The notes under the pieces were generated by a model. It worked only from the letters and a program-made list of their open reading frames with translations, was not told the origin of the DNA and made no database searches. A stretch of 64,000 nt of DNA from Oscillatoria salina IIICB1. GTDB taxonomy: Bacteria > Cyanobacteriota > Cyanobacteriia > Cyanobacteriales > SIO1D9. The translations under genes and the position numbers were made by a program. The DNA lies in contig NZ_JAAHBQ010000117.1 in the NCBI RefSeq assembly GCF_020144665.1, forward strand, positions 1 to 64,000, given 5' to 3'. Of the stretch, positions 3,751-30,435 are shown piece by piece. Positions within the stretch are counted from its first letter, which is position 1. Every line of letters starts with the position of its first letter.

Positions 3751-3904
3751 GGGGATTAGGTATTGGGTTCAGTGAACAGTGAGCAGTTATCAGTGAGCAG
3801 TTATCAGTTATCAGTTATCAGTTATCAGTTTATCCTCCCCCTCTCCCTTGTCTTCCCCCAGTCCCCAGTCCCCAGTCCCCAGTCCCCAATCACCAATCCC
3901 CAAT
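3751..3904. repeat. Heptamer repeat block between plsX and dacB
   Basis: The block opens with a short G-rich part (GGGGATTAGG, TATTGGG), passes through CAGTGAACAGTGAGC and several CAGTTAT/CAGTGAG units, and ends in tandem CCCCAGT, CCCCAAT and CACCAAT units. The 7-base period is clear. The same G-rich, CAGTTAT, C-rich order recurs in four other gaps of this window. It resembles the STRR heptamers known from cyanobacteria. Its function is unknown. Confidence 0.9.
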
Positions 3905-5259: not shown

Positions 5260-5424
5260 GGGATTGGGGACTGGGGATTGGGGATTGGGAGACTGGAAAG
5301 AGGGGGAGACAAGGGAGACAAGGGAGACAAGGGGGACAAGGGGGACAAGGGGGATAAACTGTTCACTACTGATAACTGTTCACTGATAACCCCAATCCCC
5401 AGTCCCCAGTCCCCAATCCCCAAT
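5260..5424. repeat. Heptamer repeat block between convergent dacB and lptC
   Basis: The order is tandem GGGATTG/GGGACTG units, a run of GGGAGACAA and GGGGGACAA units, ATAAACTGTTCACT and CTGATAACTG units, and finally CCCCAGT/CCCCAAT units. The G-rich left half and the C-rich right half are roughly complementary, so either strand could fold into a long hairpin. The block lies between two converging genes, where a bidirectional terminator would be expected, but it has no classical T tract. Confidence 0.9.
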
Positions 5425-5427
5425 CAA

Positions 5428-10258: not shown

Positions 10259-10472
10259 GTTACCAGTTACCAGTTACCAGTTATCAGTTATCAGTTACCA
10301 GTTACCAGTTACCAGTTACCAGTTACCAGTTAACAGTTAACAGTTAACAGTTTCCCAGTCCCCAATCCCCAATCACCAGTCCCCAATCACCAGTCCCCAA
10401 TCACCAGTCCCCAATCACCAGTCCCCAGTCCCCAATCACCAGTCCCCAATCACCAGTCCCCAATCACCAATC
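10259..10472. repeat. Heptamer repeat block between the acyltransferase and hydrolase genes
   Basis: The block begins right after the acyltransferase stop with CAGTTAC, CAGTTAT and CAGTTAA units, then switches to CCCAGTCCCCAAT and long CACCAGTCCCCAAT alternation, always with a 7-base period. It has no G-rich half, unlike the blocks between converging genes. The 3' end lies about 28 bases before the hydrolase start. Confidence 0.9.
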
Positions 10473-10500
10473 CCTGATAGTTGAATTTTCACTGATAAAA

Positions 10501-15388: not shown

Positions 15389-16609
15389 ATGATGCGCGAT
15401 CGCTTACCTCTGTTTCTAGCTGCCTGCTTTACTTGTCTAACTGTCACAGAAAATTTATCTACTCGGTTAGCATTTTCTCTCTCGTACCCAGGAGATTACG
15501 AAATTGCTCAGTTAGAAGACAACGCTACTACTCCTAAGCCTACCCTGATTCCCGGCAGTCAGGGTGCAGAAGTCGAACAACTGCAAACTAAACTCAAACA
15601 GTTAGGTTACTTCGAGGGCGAAATTGATGGTGTATACAACGAAAGTACCAGGTTAGCTGTAGAAGAATTTCAACGAAGCCAAGCTTTAGCTGCTGATGGT
15701 ATTGTCGGCTCAGGTACTTGGCAAAAGTTAGACGCAGTTGAAGTAAAATCAACTCCTACCCCAGCAGAATCAGATACTTCTCCCGTTGAAGAAGAAAAAC
15801 CTTTATTTAGCAAACGAACCTTATTTTTATTCGGCGTATTTTTTGCGATCGTCGCTAGCTTAGGAGTAGGTATAGTATTTTTACTGGGAATGTTCAAGGG
15901 TAAGAAGAAAGCAAGGCGAAATCTTAGATCCGTTTTACCCGAAGATAATTTAACTGACGAGTTTACTGACGATCCCGAATTAACCAACCAATTAGAGGAA
16001 GAACAAGTAACTAATGAAGATCGCTTAGATTTAGACAAAAATTACCACAATGGCGCTAATTTAGCAGTTTCTACTTCCGAAGATGGTAAAAGCGAGTCAA
16101 ATAATCTTGAAAACTCTCTTCCGGAAATCCGCAAAACTTCTCGTCTCGCCAAAATTGATATTATTGACGAGTTGATTAAAGACTTGCGTCAACCAGATCC
16201 TAACAAGCGACGTAAAGCAATTTGGGAATTAGCCCAACGTGCCGATTCTCGCGCAATGCAGCCTTTAGTTGAGTTAATGATTGACTGTGATTCCCAAGAA
16301 CGTAGTTTAATTTTGGAAGCGATCGCCCAAATTAGCAACCGTACTCTCAAACCCCTGAATCGGGCTTTAGCTATTTCCCTGCAAGACGATAACCCAGAAG
16401 TACGGAAAAACGCGATTCGCGATTTAACCAGAGTTTACGAGTTAATTTCTCAAGTTAGTCGTATGTTGTGCAATGCTGCTGACGATCCCGATCCAGAAGT
16501 TCAAGAAACGGCAGAATGGGCGCTTTCTCGGCTGAATCAGCTTCAAATGCCTGCTTCTGATTCTAATTTAGATCGCTTGTCAATGGGACAAAATCCGCCT
16601 AATAATTAG
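15389..16609 (+). CDS. Membrane protein with peptidoglycan-binding domain and HEAT repeats
   Basis: The order of parts is a signal-like hydrophobic N-terminus (LPLFLAACFTCLTV), a PG_binding_1 domain at about residues 55-115 (EVEQLQTKLKQLGYFEGEIDG), one membrane helix at about 145-170, a charged linker, and a HEAT-like helical domain at about 260-390 (DPNKRRKAIWELAQ, DNPEVRKNAIRDL, DPEVQETAEWALS). The layout suggests a protein that touches the cell wall outside and offers a protein-binding scaffold inside, though topology is inferred. The start is ATG 15389; a second ATG follows at once. The stop codon is part of the GGGATTA repeat block. Confidence 0.8.
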   Translation: MMRDRLPLFLAACFTCLTVTENLSTRLAFSLSYPGDYEIAQLEDNATTPKPTLIPGSQGAEVEQLQTKLKQLGYFEGEIDGVYNESTRLAVEEFQRSQALAADGIVGSGTWQKLDAVEVKSTPTPAESDTSPVEEEKPLFSKRTLFLFGVFFAIVASLGVGIVFLLGMFKGKKKARRNLRSVLPEDNLTDEFTDDPELTNQLEEEQVTNEDRLDLDKNYHNGANLAVSTSEDGKSESNNLENSLPEIRKTSRLAKIDIIDELIKDLRQPDPNKRRKAIWELAQRADSRAMQPLVELMIDCDSQERSLILEAIAQISNRTLKPLNRALAISLQDDNPEVRKNAIRDLTRVYELISQVSRMLCNAADDPDPEVQETAEWALSRLNQLQMPASDSNLDRLSMGQNPPNN

Positions 16610-16868
16610 GGATTAGGGATTAGGGATTAGGGATTAGGGATTGGGGATTGGGGATTGGGGATTAGGGATTAGGGATTAGGGATTAGGGATTAGGGATTAG
16701 GGAGACAAGGAGTATAAACTGATAACTGATAACTGATAACTGTTCACTGAACCCAGTCACCAGTCCCCAGTCACCAGTCACCAGTCCCCAGTCCCCAGTC
16801 CCCAGTCCCCAGTCCCCAGTCACCAGTCCCCAGTCCCCAGTCACCAGTCCCCAGTCCCCAGTCACCAA
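16605..16868. repeat. Long heptamer repeat block (GGGATTA then CCCCAGT)
   Basis: About 13 GGGATTA/GGGATTG units are followed by GGGAGACAAGGAG, three CTGATAA units, TTCACTGAACCC and then about 15 CCCCAGT/CACCAGT units. The first repeat supplies the TAG stop of the upstream gene. The two halves are near-complementary. It separates two genes of the same direction, so here it is not between converging genes. Confidence 0.92.
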
Positions 16869-16885
16869 TTCCCAAATACTAACTA

Positions 16886-19160: not shown

Positions 19161-20453
19161 ATGAATTCACTATTATCCCGCTTGCTAGCAATTTTTCTCA
19201 GCTTAACTTTGCTGTTTTCAACTGGCTGTCAGACTAATTCTCGAACTGACAGCGATATAATTAAGATTACCATGTGGCATGGAATAAATCCACCTGCAAA
19301 TAGAGATGTTTTTAATGAATTAGTTGCTAAGTTTAATCAAAATCATCCCCACATAGAATTAGAAGCATTATATATCGGACAACCAGATGGACAATTACCG
19401 AAAATTCTCACAGCAGTAGTAGGAAATGTGCCACCGGACATTCTTTGGTTTACACCGCAATTAACAGGTCAACTAGTAGAATTACAGGCGATCAAACCCC
19501 TTGATGATTGGCTAAATAATTCTCCTCTAAAAGCTGAAATTGACCCAGTTTTGTTTGAATCTATGGAATTGAACGATCATTTGTGGTCGATTCCTTTAGC
19601 TACTAATAATGCAGCAATATTTTATCGTCCTTCTTTGTTTGAGAAAGCAGGAATTACTGAGTTGCCGCAAACTTGGGCAGAATTACGGAAAGTAGCAGAA
19701 AAATTAACTCAGGATTTCGATAAAGATGGTTTAATCGACCAATATGGATTATTTTTATCTTTAGGAAAAGGAGAATGGACTGTGTTTGCGTGGCTACCCT
19801 TTGTCTTTAGTGCGGGTGGCGAATTAACTTCCGGAAATCAGCCGAATTTAGTTAATGAAGGTACCATTTCTGCCTTACAATTTGGGGCAGATTTAGTAGG
19901 AGATAATTTAGCAATTTTATCTGCACCAGAAAGAGGTTATGAAATGGATAATTTCCTTACGGGAAAAGCAGCCATGCAAGTAACAGGACCTTGGACTTTA
20001 GGACAATTACAGCAAACTAATATAGATTATGGTGTTTTTCCTATTCCTGCCAAAAAAGAACGTGCCGCAGTTGTGGGTGGAGAAAACTTATTTGTCTTTA
20101 AAACTACTCCGGAAAGAGAACAAGCAGCAATTGAGTTTTTGTCCTATGTTTTGAGTGAAGAATTTCAAACAGCTTGGGCTTTGGGGACAGGATATTTACC
20201 GATTAATAAAAAAGCCCAAAAAAGTGCAGAATATCAAAAATTTGTGCAAGAAAATCCCATGCTAAATGTATTTTTGCAGCAAATGGACTGGGCGCGATCG
20301 CGTCCTATCATTCCCGGTTATACTCGTCTCTCAGAAAACTTCGGACGTGCAATTGAAGCTTCTCTTCTAGGGAAAGAAAGCCCCGCAGAAGCTTTAGCTG
20401 CATCTCAACGACGTTTAGAGTTAATTTTTCAAGATAAATACGTTCAGAAATGA
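19161..20453 (+). CDS. ABC transporter extracellular solute-binding lipoprotein, family 1 (sugar type)
   Basis: This 430-residue lipoprotein has a signal peptide ending in the lipobox LFSTGC near residue 23. The family 1 solute-binding fold follows: ITMWHGINPP, the hinge-region DILWFTPQLTGQL and IPLATNNAAIFYRP, and the C-terminal AAIEFLSYVLSEEFQ. Such proteins deliver sugars or glycerol-phosphate-like solutes to an ABC permease. No permease or ATPase gene is adjacent, so its partners are encoded elsewhere. The start is ATG 19161. Confidence 0.9.
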   Translation: MNSLLSRLLAIFLSLTLLFSTGCQTNSRTDSDIIKITMWHGINPPANRDVFNELVAKFNQNHPHIELEALYIGQPDGQLPKILTAVVGNVPPDILWFTPQLTGQLVELQAIKPLDDWLNNSPLKAEIDPVLFESMELNDHLWSIPLATNNAAIFYRPSLFEKAGITELPQTWAELRKVAEKLTQDFDKDGLIDQYGLFLSLGKGEWTVFAWLPFVFSAGGELTSGNQPNLVNEGTISALQFGADLVGDNLAILSAPERGYEMDNFLTGKAAMQVTGPWTLGQLQQTNIDYGVFPIPAKKERAAVVGGENLFVFKTTPEREQAAIEFLSYVLSEEFQTAWALGTGYLPINKKAQKSAEYQKFVQENPMLNVFLQQMDWARSRPIIPGYTRLSENFGRAIEASLLGKESPAEALAASQRRLELIFQDKYVQK

Positions 20454-20540: not shown

Positions 20541-21692
20541 ATGACAGGAAAACCGACAAATAAATGTCAGTTACCACCACCGCTAAAACCAGGAGATAGG
20601 TTACGAGTTATTACTCCTAGCGGAACTTTGCGCGAGTTGGAAGCGTTTGAGAAGGGAGTAAAAATTTGGCGCGATCGCGGCTACCAAATCGAATACGCTA
20701 GTCATTGGGATGCACGTTGCGGCTATTTGGCAGGAAAAGATAGCCAACGCCGTGAAGCGTTAGCTGAGGCTTGGTTTGACCCGGAATGTAAAGGTATTCT
20801 TTGTGCTAGAGGTGGTTATGGTAGCACGAGGTTGCTGGAAAATTGGCGTTGGGATGTTGAGAGTGAAGGAATTTGCGGACAAGGAAGTAGAGAGGTTGCA
20901 TGCAACGTCTCTACAAACCCCAATCACCAATCACCAATCACCAATCACCAGTCCCCAGTCCCCAGTCACCAATCACCAGTCCCCAGTCCCCAGTCCCCAG
21001 TCACCAGTCCCCAGTCACCAGTCCCCAGTCCCCAGTCCCCAGTCACCAGTCCCCAGTCACCAGTCCCCAGTCCCCAGTCCCCAATCACCAAATGGCTAAT
21101 CGGCTTTTCTGATGTCACAGCATTGCTGTGGAGTTTAGCGAAAGCGGGTATTTCTAGCTTACACGCGCCGGTTTTAACTACTTTGAGTAGGGAGCCTCAA
21201 TGGTCAATTGAACGACTGTTTGACTGCGTAGAAGGTCGTTCAGTGGCTCCTTTGACTGGTAATGGTTGGGGTGGTGATGTAGCGACTGGGATCTTGTTAC
21301 CAGCTAATTTAACTGTAGCGACTCATTTGTTAAATACACCTCTTCAACCTAACCTGGAAGGCGTTATTCTGGCTTTAGAAGACGTGACAGAGGCTCCTTA
21401 TCGCATTGACCGAATGTTAACTCAGTGGCGGATGTCTGGGGCGTTTGCGGGGGTAAAAGGTATTGCTTTGGGACGTTTTAGTCGGTGTTGCGCTCCCGAA
21501 GGAATACCCAGTTGGACTGTAGAAGAAGTGTTAAGCGATCGCCTCATCGATCTTAATATTCCCATTGTCTCAGATTTGGCTTTCGGTCATGAGGGCGCAA
21601 ATGCGGCTCTTCCAGTGGGACAATTTGTTACTTTGGATGGATCTCAAGGTATTTTAGCTTTTCAGTCTCAGGAAAGCATTACGAATAAATAA
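20541..21692 (+). CDS. ldcA: LD-carboxypeptidase (S66 family) with an in-frame repeat insertion
   Basis: LdcA removes the terminal D-Ala from tetrapeptides during murein recycling. The motifs are all present: ARGGYGSTRLL near residue 90, the nucleophile Ser190 in LIGFSDVTALL, Glu in LALEDVTEAPYRI and His in AFGHEGANAALPVG. The 383-residue length exceeds the normal 300-310. The excess is residues about 106-183, encoded by a palindromic element plus heptamer repeats read as SPVPSPQ and SPVTSPQ units. The insertion lies in the loop before the nucleophile and keeps the frame, so an intact enzyme may still fold with a Pro/Ser-rich loop. Activity is uncertain. The start is ATG 20541. Confidence 0.88.
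   Translation: MTGKPTNKCQLPPPLKPGDRLRVITPSGTLRELEAFEKGVKIWRDRGYQIEYASHWDARCGYLAGKDSQRREALAEAWFDPECKGILCARGGYGSTRLLENWRWDVESEGICGQGSREVACNVSTNPNHQSPITNHQSPVPSHQSPVPSPQSPVTSPQSPVPSPQSPVTSPQSPVPSPQSPITKWLIGFSDVTALLWSLAKAGISSLHAPVLTTLSREPQWSIERLFDCVEGRSVAPLTGNGWGGDVATGILLPANLTVATHLLNTPLQPNLEGVILALEDVTEAPYRIDRMLTQWRMSGAFAGVKGIALGRFSRCCAPEGIPSWTVEEVLSDRLIDLNIPIVSDLAFGHEGANAALPVGQFVTLDGSQGILAFQSQESITNK
20887..21090. repeat. Palindrome plus heptamer repeats inserted inside the LD-carboxypeptidase gene
   Basis: Bases 20887-20914 are a 28-bp palindrome (GTAGAGAGGTTGCATG to TCTCTAC, one mismatch). A run of CACCAAT, CACCAGT and CCCCAGT heptamers follows to 21090. Three heptamers equal seven codons, and this frame contains no stop. 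The same sequences are intergenic elsewhere in the window. Confidence 0.92.
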
Positions 21693-21773: not shown

Positions 21774-22838
21774 ATGACTGGGACAACCCAGATACCATAT
21801 CTCTTACGTGCGGCTCGTAATGAGGAGTTAGAGCGTCCTCCAGTGTGGATGATGCGACAAGCGGGTCGTTATATGCAGGTTTATCGCGATTTGCGCGAGA
21901 AATATCCCAGTTTCCGCGAGCGATCGGAAAATGCTGAGATTGCGATCGAAATTTCCTTGCAACCCTGGAAGGCGTTTCAACCGGATGGGGTGATTATGTT
22001 TTCTGATATTTTGACTCCTTTACCAGGAATCGGTATTCCTTTTGATATCGTCGAAAGTAAGGGACCGATGATTCAACCGCCAATCCGGAGTCAGGAACAA
22101 ATTGACCAATTGCATCCTCTAGAGCCAGACGAGTCTCTACCGTTTATTAAGAAAATTTTAACGGCTTTGCGCGAGGAAGTTGGCAACCAAGCGGCGGTAT
22201 TAGGTTTTGTCGGCGCACCTTGGACATTAGCAGCTTACGCGATCGAAGGTAAAAGCTCGAAAAATTACGCGATTATTAAGAGTATGGCGTTTTCTGAGCC
22301 GAAAATGCTGCATCAGTTTTTAGGGAAATTGGCTGAGGCGATCGCTACTTACGTTTGCTACCAAATTGACTGCGGAGCGCAGATCGTGCAAATGTTTGAC
22401 TCTTGGGCTGGTCAACTTTGTCCTCAAGATTACGAAATTTTTGCTTTACCATATCAACTGCAAGTTGTCAAGAAGGTAAAGGAAACTCACCCAGATACAC
22501 CCTTAATTCTCTACATTAGTGGTAGTGCAGGCGTGTTAGAAAGAATGGGTAGATCGGGAGTTGATTTTGTCAGTGTAGACTGGACAGTAGATATGGCAGA
22601 AGCCAGAGAGCGTCTCGGTAAAGATATGAAAGTACAAGGAAATATCGACCCTGGCGTATTATTTGGCTCAAAGGAATTTATCCGGGAGCGAATTATTGAT
22701 ACCATTCGTAAAGCCGGATCTCGCGGTCATATCCTGAACCTCGGTCATGGCGTGTTACCGGGAACACCTGAAGAAAATGTGGCTTTCTTCTTTGAAACCG
22801 CCAAACAAGCGGATAAACTCCTGGCTTTTAGCGCCTAA
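21774..22838 (+). CDS. hemE: Uroporphyrinogen decarboxylase
   Basis: HemE removes four carboxyl groups from uroporphyrinogen III to give coproporphyrinogen III, on the way to haem and chlorophyll. The 354 residues have the family length. Signatures are [14 protein letters not shown] near residue 21, the catalytic Asp in [26 protein letters not shown] and [14 protein letters not shown]. The start is ATG 21774 with AAGGTGA about 10 bases upstream. The epimerase gene follows after about 70 bases and may be co-transcribed. Confidence 0.97.
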
Positions 22839-30132: not shown

Positions 30133-30140
30133 TAAATTAG

Positions 30141-30435
30141 TTTGTAGTTAGGGCTAAAGCCCGAAAAAGTAGCGCTAAAGCGCTCACTACGAACTCAAAG
30201 TTTGTAGTTAGGGCTAAAGCCCGGAAAAGAGGCGCTAAAGCGCTCACTACGAACTCAAAGTTTGTAGTTAGGGCTAAAGCCCGAAAAAGTAGCGCTAAAG
30301 CGCTCACTACGAACTCAAAGTTTGTAGTTAGGGCTAAAGCCCGAAAAAGTAGCGCTAAAGCGCTCACTACGAACTCAAAGTTTGTAGTCAGGGCTAAAGC
30401 CCGGAAAAGAGGCGCTAAAGCGCTCACTACGAACT
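30141..30435. repeat. Five tandem 60-bp repeats between urtC and urtD
   Basis: Units start at 30141, 30201, 30261, 30321 and 30381 with TTTGTAGT(T/C)AGGGCTAAAG, and each holds two perfect mini-hairpins: GGGCT-AA-AGCCC and AGCGCT-AA-AGCGCT. TTTGTAGT at the left and ACTACGAA at the right of each unit can pair as an outer stem. The middle differs between two types: copies 1, 3 and 4 have GAAAAAGTAG, while copies 2 and 5 have GGAAAAGAGG. The last unit lacks the TCAAAG spacer. Confidence 0.97.

Follow-up and report, generated by a model that had tools for sequence, protein, structure and literature searches.

Unrelated repeats in a single loop of cyanobacterial LdcA: a probable recurrent and permissive landing site

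How did repeats that otherwise lie between genes come to sit, in frame, just ahead of the nucleophile of a cell-wall enzyme, and does the enzyme survive them? The locus is ldcA of Oscillatoria salina IIICB1, at 20541–21692 (plus strand) of the 64,000-nucleotide stretch of contig NZ_JAAHBQ010000117.1 that we analysed (the window), between a solute-binding protein gene (19161–20453) and hemE (21774–22838). Its 383-aa product was assigned to the S66 LD-carboxypeptidases with Pfam and Foldseek. Both S66 halves are matched above their curated cut-offs (PF02016, E 7.7e–26; PF17676, E 8.8e–34, or 3.5e–34 in the genome-wide search), and the sequence predicts a murein tetrapeptide carboxypeptidase of cell-wall recycling that would cleave off the terminal D-Ala. 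The N-terminal S66 domain (20604–20855, plus strand; PF02016 over residues 22–105, AF2 pLDDT mostly >80) ends at RGGYGSTRLLENWRW. It is followed by an insert whose left part, DVESEGICGQGS (20856–20886, plus strand), includes GGACAAGGA-like sequence and is missing from short-loop orthologues. A 28-bp palindrome, GTAGAGAGGTTGCATGCAACGTCTCTAC (20887–20914), comes next, and then an array of 24 heptamers C[CA]CCA[AG]T (20918–21090, plus strand), translated as NHQSPITNHQSPVPS...SPQSPIT, with the G-rich strand as template. KWLIGFSD (21090–21113, plus strand), the strand and nucleophile elbow with the predicted catalytic Ser190, starts where the array ends; the C-terminal domain (21285–21635, plus strand; PF17676) carries E280/D281 and H350 in invariant columns. 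A first-pass annotation had described the palindrome and about 170 bases of heptamers in the ldcA frame and put the gain at about 75 residues. Both statements hold: RGG and GFSD stand 98 residues apart against a baseline of 23–28, that is, ~73 extra.

A large insert near the active-site serine may point to a decaying pseudogene that is open by chance. We consider this highly improbable, since 383 codons run without a stop, the gene is the sole S66 gene that a profile search found in the 5.96-Mb genome, and the window LdcA retains 73 of 73 columns that are invariant across 63 orthologues. S190, E280 and H350 are among these columns, and the Ser-Glu-His catalytic residues stand in GxSD, ED and H motifs; the catalytic motifs are thus kept, as had been claimed. 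In the AlphaFold model the core blocks are mostly >90 pLDDT and most of residues 112–160 are <50, which suggests an intact fold with a disordered insert. Foldseek matches of the model are 1zrs, 2aum and 5z01, with LdcA active-site mutant structures among them. These enzymes of P. aeruginosa (1zrs, 2aum) and E. coli (5z01) have the fold and the catalytic motifs in common with the window LdcA but lack a repeat-built loop, and are ~22–24% identical to it by structure alignment. Judged from sequence and model, ldcA looks functional.

We then considered the inserted elements themselves. The palindrome is one mismatch short of perfect (none as good in 100 shuffles) and has a hairpin folding z of –4.4. 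It has ~67 copies genome-wide at ≤3 mismatches (134 strand matches; reversed control, 0), and 15 of the 15 other copies that were inspected are intergenic, outside any substantial open frame. The copy in ldcA is the only one in the window. Hence, the claim that both elements are otherwise intergenic in the window is right for the heptamers and wrong for the palindrome. A search of 60 genomes from the order detected the palindrome in 17, and symmetric variants such as GTTTCATGAAAC preserve it. Many copies form part of a larger MITE-like element bounded by ATACCAATTT...AAATGGTAT (near position 1500 in L004, L005, L006, L011 and L014); in ldcA the palindrome is naked. Being short, dispersed, mostly intergenic and beginning with GTAG, it resembles the GTAG/CGTC-tagged REPs, which include cyanobacterial GTAG-12, -15 and -16 and have been described inside genes (PMC3733652), but differs in being symmetric (GTAG...CTAC).

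The heptamers are likewise dispersed. A two-unit pattern gave 70 matches in the window (0.03 expected), and a four-unit pattern gave 391 + 344 matches in the genome, with none for the reversed control. Among 44 arrays sampled genome-wide, that of ldcA alone sits within a gene, while several terminate directly upstream of one; some have a chance open frame, the repeat being stop-free in one orientation. Further arrays in the window lie at 3769–3902, 5260–5425, 10259–10474 and 16605–16874, and arrays of differing types often adjoin (TCAGTTA or GTTACCA beside CCCCAGT). The ldcA unit, with its many arrays genome-wide, is the GGGGA(C/T)T heptamer (A[GA]TCCCC on the opposite strand) known from Nostoc sp. 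PCC 7120; there, 68% are intergenic and the remainder intragenic, and the heptamer results in that account name no insertion hotspot (Rehm et al. 2015, PMC4692102). A canonical four-G-tract quadruplex motif is absent from the ldcA array and present in 28 of the 43 others. Quadruplex avoidance was nevertheless dropped as an explanation, since 18% of random orders of the array's own units also lack the motif. A different repeat occupies 30139–30435 of the window, with 4.9 copies of a 60-bp unit that combines the small palindromes GGGCTAAAGCCC and AGCGCTAAAGCGCT and ends in CACTACGAAC; a repeat resembling this unit, GAGGACTAAAGTCCTCACTACGAAC, is present in the ldcA loop of L045. Overall, the dispersed intergenic elements, the intact core and the predicted disorder of the insert lend good support to the earlier proposal of a repeat invasion that the protein accommodates as a flexible Pro/Ser loop.

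Is the insert peculiar to this genome? We compared cyanobacterial LdcA orthologues, 108 of them for indel mapping and 112 distinct ones for loop lengths, and found that most relatives lack the insert. Over 297 core columns, insertions in the 108 orthologues are confined to the loop interval between RGG and GFSD. The loop has ≤28 residues in 57 of the 112 orthologues, 29–37 in 21 and ≥38 in 34 (range 38–98), that of the window being the longest. Two members of a second S66 subfamily in the surveyed genomes (L206 and L209) both have an RGG-GFSD distance of 26 residues. Clear tandem repeats were scored in 24 of the 34 long loops, nearly all with period 7–8, and equal-length windows elsewhere in the same ldcA genes rarely score as repeats (shuffles and control windows). 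The units are diverse (CCAATTA, CCCCACT, CTCAGAA, CCAAAAT, GGGGCAGA, GGGGAGCA, GGACAAGGG), and the kinds of repeat in long loops comprise various heptamers, octamers, nonamers and palindromes, the last for example in L045, L096 and L190. Among the remaining 10 long loops, some contain palindromes and others may be ordinary diverged linkers. A low-power search for the loop repeats in the few-kb flanks of orthologues matched 6 of 40 long loops. The best identity of the window ldcA to any relative in the set is 73%, with no near empty-site partner. A contig labelled Candidatus Gracilibacteria (L049), probably a mislabelled bin, has an ldcA that is typically cyanobacterial and whose loop is built from repeats.

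On the core tree, the long and short loop classes require at least 17 changes. Repeats of period 7, 8, 10 or 11 within coding sequence are strongly overrepresented in ldcA (13 of 75 genes versus 1 of 395 other ORFs, Fisher P-value 2e–10) in a sample of ORFs of ≥150 codons from the loci fetched, in which the controls are genes flanking ldcA only. The sole flank gene with such an in-frame repeat, the octamer CTCCCACT, is a 358-aa ORF of L094 whose N-terminus resembles a membrane transporter. The first reading, a single invasion, was thus correct about the repeat origin of the insert and too narrow about the number of events, since the loop is a recurrent acceptor across cyanobacteria. Relatives with a loop from unrelated sequence, which had been named as grounds for giving up the invasion idea, do occur. 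However, these loops are mostly other repeats, and the idea is thereby strengthened and widened.

Close pairs of genomes display individual events. The gene cores of G016 and G123 are 98.3% identical in DNA, and in G123 a clean in-frame insertion of 42 nt splits the repeat of the loop itself; relatives of the inserted element exist elsewhere in both genomes. Fischerella muscicola differs from F. thermalis (core 94.3%) by a clean, in-frame, nested insertion of a 27-nt repeat, TACGGGAAGCCGCTTGCGCGTCTAC, which has 25 and 18 matches in the two genomes. The loop of Brasilonema angustatum, which carries an octamer array and a piece of a dispersed repeat, has 51 residues versus 27 in Brasilonema CT11 (core 96.6%). 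In L119 a heptamer and in L040 an octamer occupies the same place (core 95.3%). Repeated filling of one site across many genera, together with the striking excess over other genes, could reflect selection for long disordered Pro/Ser/Gly loops that serve localisation, dimer control or substrate access, with the repeats as raw material. We think this quite unlikely, as sister species can have wholly unlike peptides at the same place (e.g. SKIQNPK versus AEGQRGRG) and the loop is minimal in roughly half of the orthologues, both of which neutrality fits better.

The reading frame bears on a further possibility. In the ldcA orientation the heptamer has no stop in any of the three frames, and three units equal seven codons; changes of 21 bp in the array keep the frame, as had been pointed out. 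A change of +7 or –7 bp would yield a product of 192 or 183 residues with a stop just past the array and without the GFSD nucleophile motif. The array comprises 24 units and nearly repeats itself every 42 bp (autocorrelation 0.93 at that lag). It could therefore be a phase-variable switch in which gain or loss of a single heptamer by slipped-strand mispairing toggles LdcA, as in contingency loci. While phase variation by a one-unit slip is possible, we judge this account of the locus unlikely. No off-frame repeat-bearing orthologue was found among those readable across the loop, and the two ldcA genes of the first set that failed the frame test are contig ends within the loop. Variant units interrupt the array, which usually lowers slippage. 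Moreover, the 21/42-bp periodicity recurs in the array at 16752, which is intergenic, and so gives no sign of coding selection; for the same reason, frame-selected expansion was dropped as a reading of the 42-bp peak. There is a small chance that the loop is a functional, length-variable module, in which slippage switches or tunes this peptidoglycan-recycling enzyme and the site is permissive because variation pays.

Frameshifts were seen in the ldcA genes L195 and L197 of one genus (G131 and G185). The frameshift in the G131 loop is a single-base difference in the G-run of a short loop, and we rejected it as a repeat-slippage "off" variant, sequencing error or decay being more likely. Assemblies of ldcA are broken exactly in the loop repeats in L061, L111 and L191/L215 (Plectonema radiosum NIES-515, Phormidium sp. 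LEGE 05292, G144), and very long arrays may be under-represented because contig ends cut the gene there. Since repeats break ldcA in other genomes and the present one is a draft of 163 contigs, repeat DNA might have been misjoined into the gene. Such an artefact is extremely improbable: a chimera is unlikely to hold the exact frame and all downstream residues, and similar loops are found in many independent assemblies, some of 2 to 10 contigs (G055, G165, G179). If each event had a 1/3 chance of staying in frame and events were independent, 17 in-frame outcomes would have a probability of roughly 1e–8, and purifying selection is the natural reading.

Taking the elements, their dispersal, their recurrence, the kept frame and the conserved core as observed, we suggest that LdcA very probably has a permissive loop that has been filled recurrently by unrelated repeats, with the in-frame state held by purifying selection. 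The loop before the nucleophile strand would be a linker on whose length and sequence catalysis hardly depends. In cyanobacterial genomes, which are rich in small dispersed palindromes and in tandem heptamers, octamers and nonamers, such repeats may enter or grow within the loop repeatedly, presumably by copying of dispersed elements and by slippage. Selection would remove loops that are out of frame or bear stops, leaving only in-frame survivors. In the window genome, the loop would have received the 28-bp palindrome and an array of heptamers, today 24 units long, and the array may have lengthened by frame-preserving steps of three units. The heptamer suits the loop because it is stop-free in any frame in this orientation and because three units make seven codons. 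The product would be a normal LD-carboxypeptidase bearing a disordered loop rich in Pro, Ser and Gln, and we infer an expressed, active enzyme and a nearly neutral loop.

The closest parallel is offered by the Rickettsia palindromic elements (RPEs), palindromes that encode protein in Rickettsia and Wolbachia (Ogata, Claverie and colleagues; reviewed in PMC2229807, cited in PMC3733652). RPEs measure 105–146 bp and have entered many genes, and the guanylate kinase of R. conorii with an RPE insert is translated and active (PMC2229807). The ldcA palindrome resembles them as a dispersed palindromic repeat that lies in frame in a conserved gene and gives a tolerated product. However, it is only 28 bp long and belongs to a family dispersed in cyanobacteria. 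Moreover, where RPEs enter many genes, the ldcA case involves short repeats of many unrelated kinds, chiefly tandem units of 7 to 9 bp, in one loop of one gene across many genera. A literature search of partial coverage found no report of LdcA as a repeat-insertion hotspot in cyanobacteria; recurrent repeat filling of this loop appears undescribed, although an earlier description is possible.

For users of cyanobacterial genomes, these results mark a permissive loop in LdcA and serve as a warning that assemblies break in ldcA. Insertions of several repeat families in sister pairs are useful for tracing the spread of heptamers and small palindromes in cyanobacteria. ldcA illustrates how intergenic repeats turn into protein sequence outside Rickettsia, and its loop amounts to a natural insertion experiment, repeated many times at one site of a protein.
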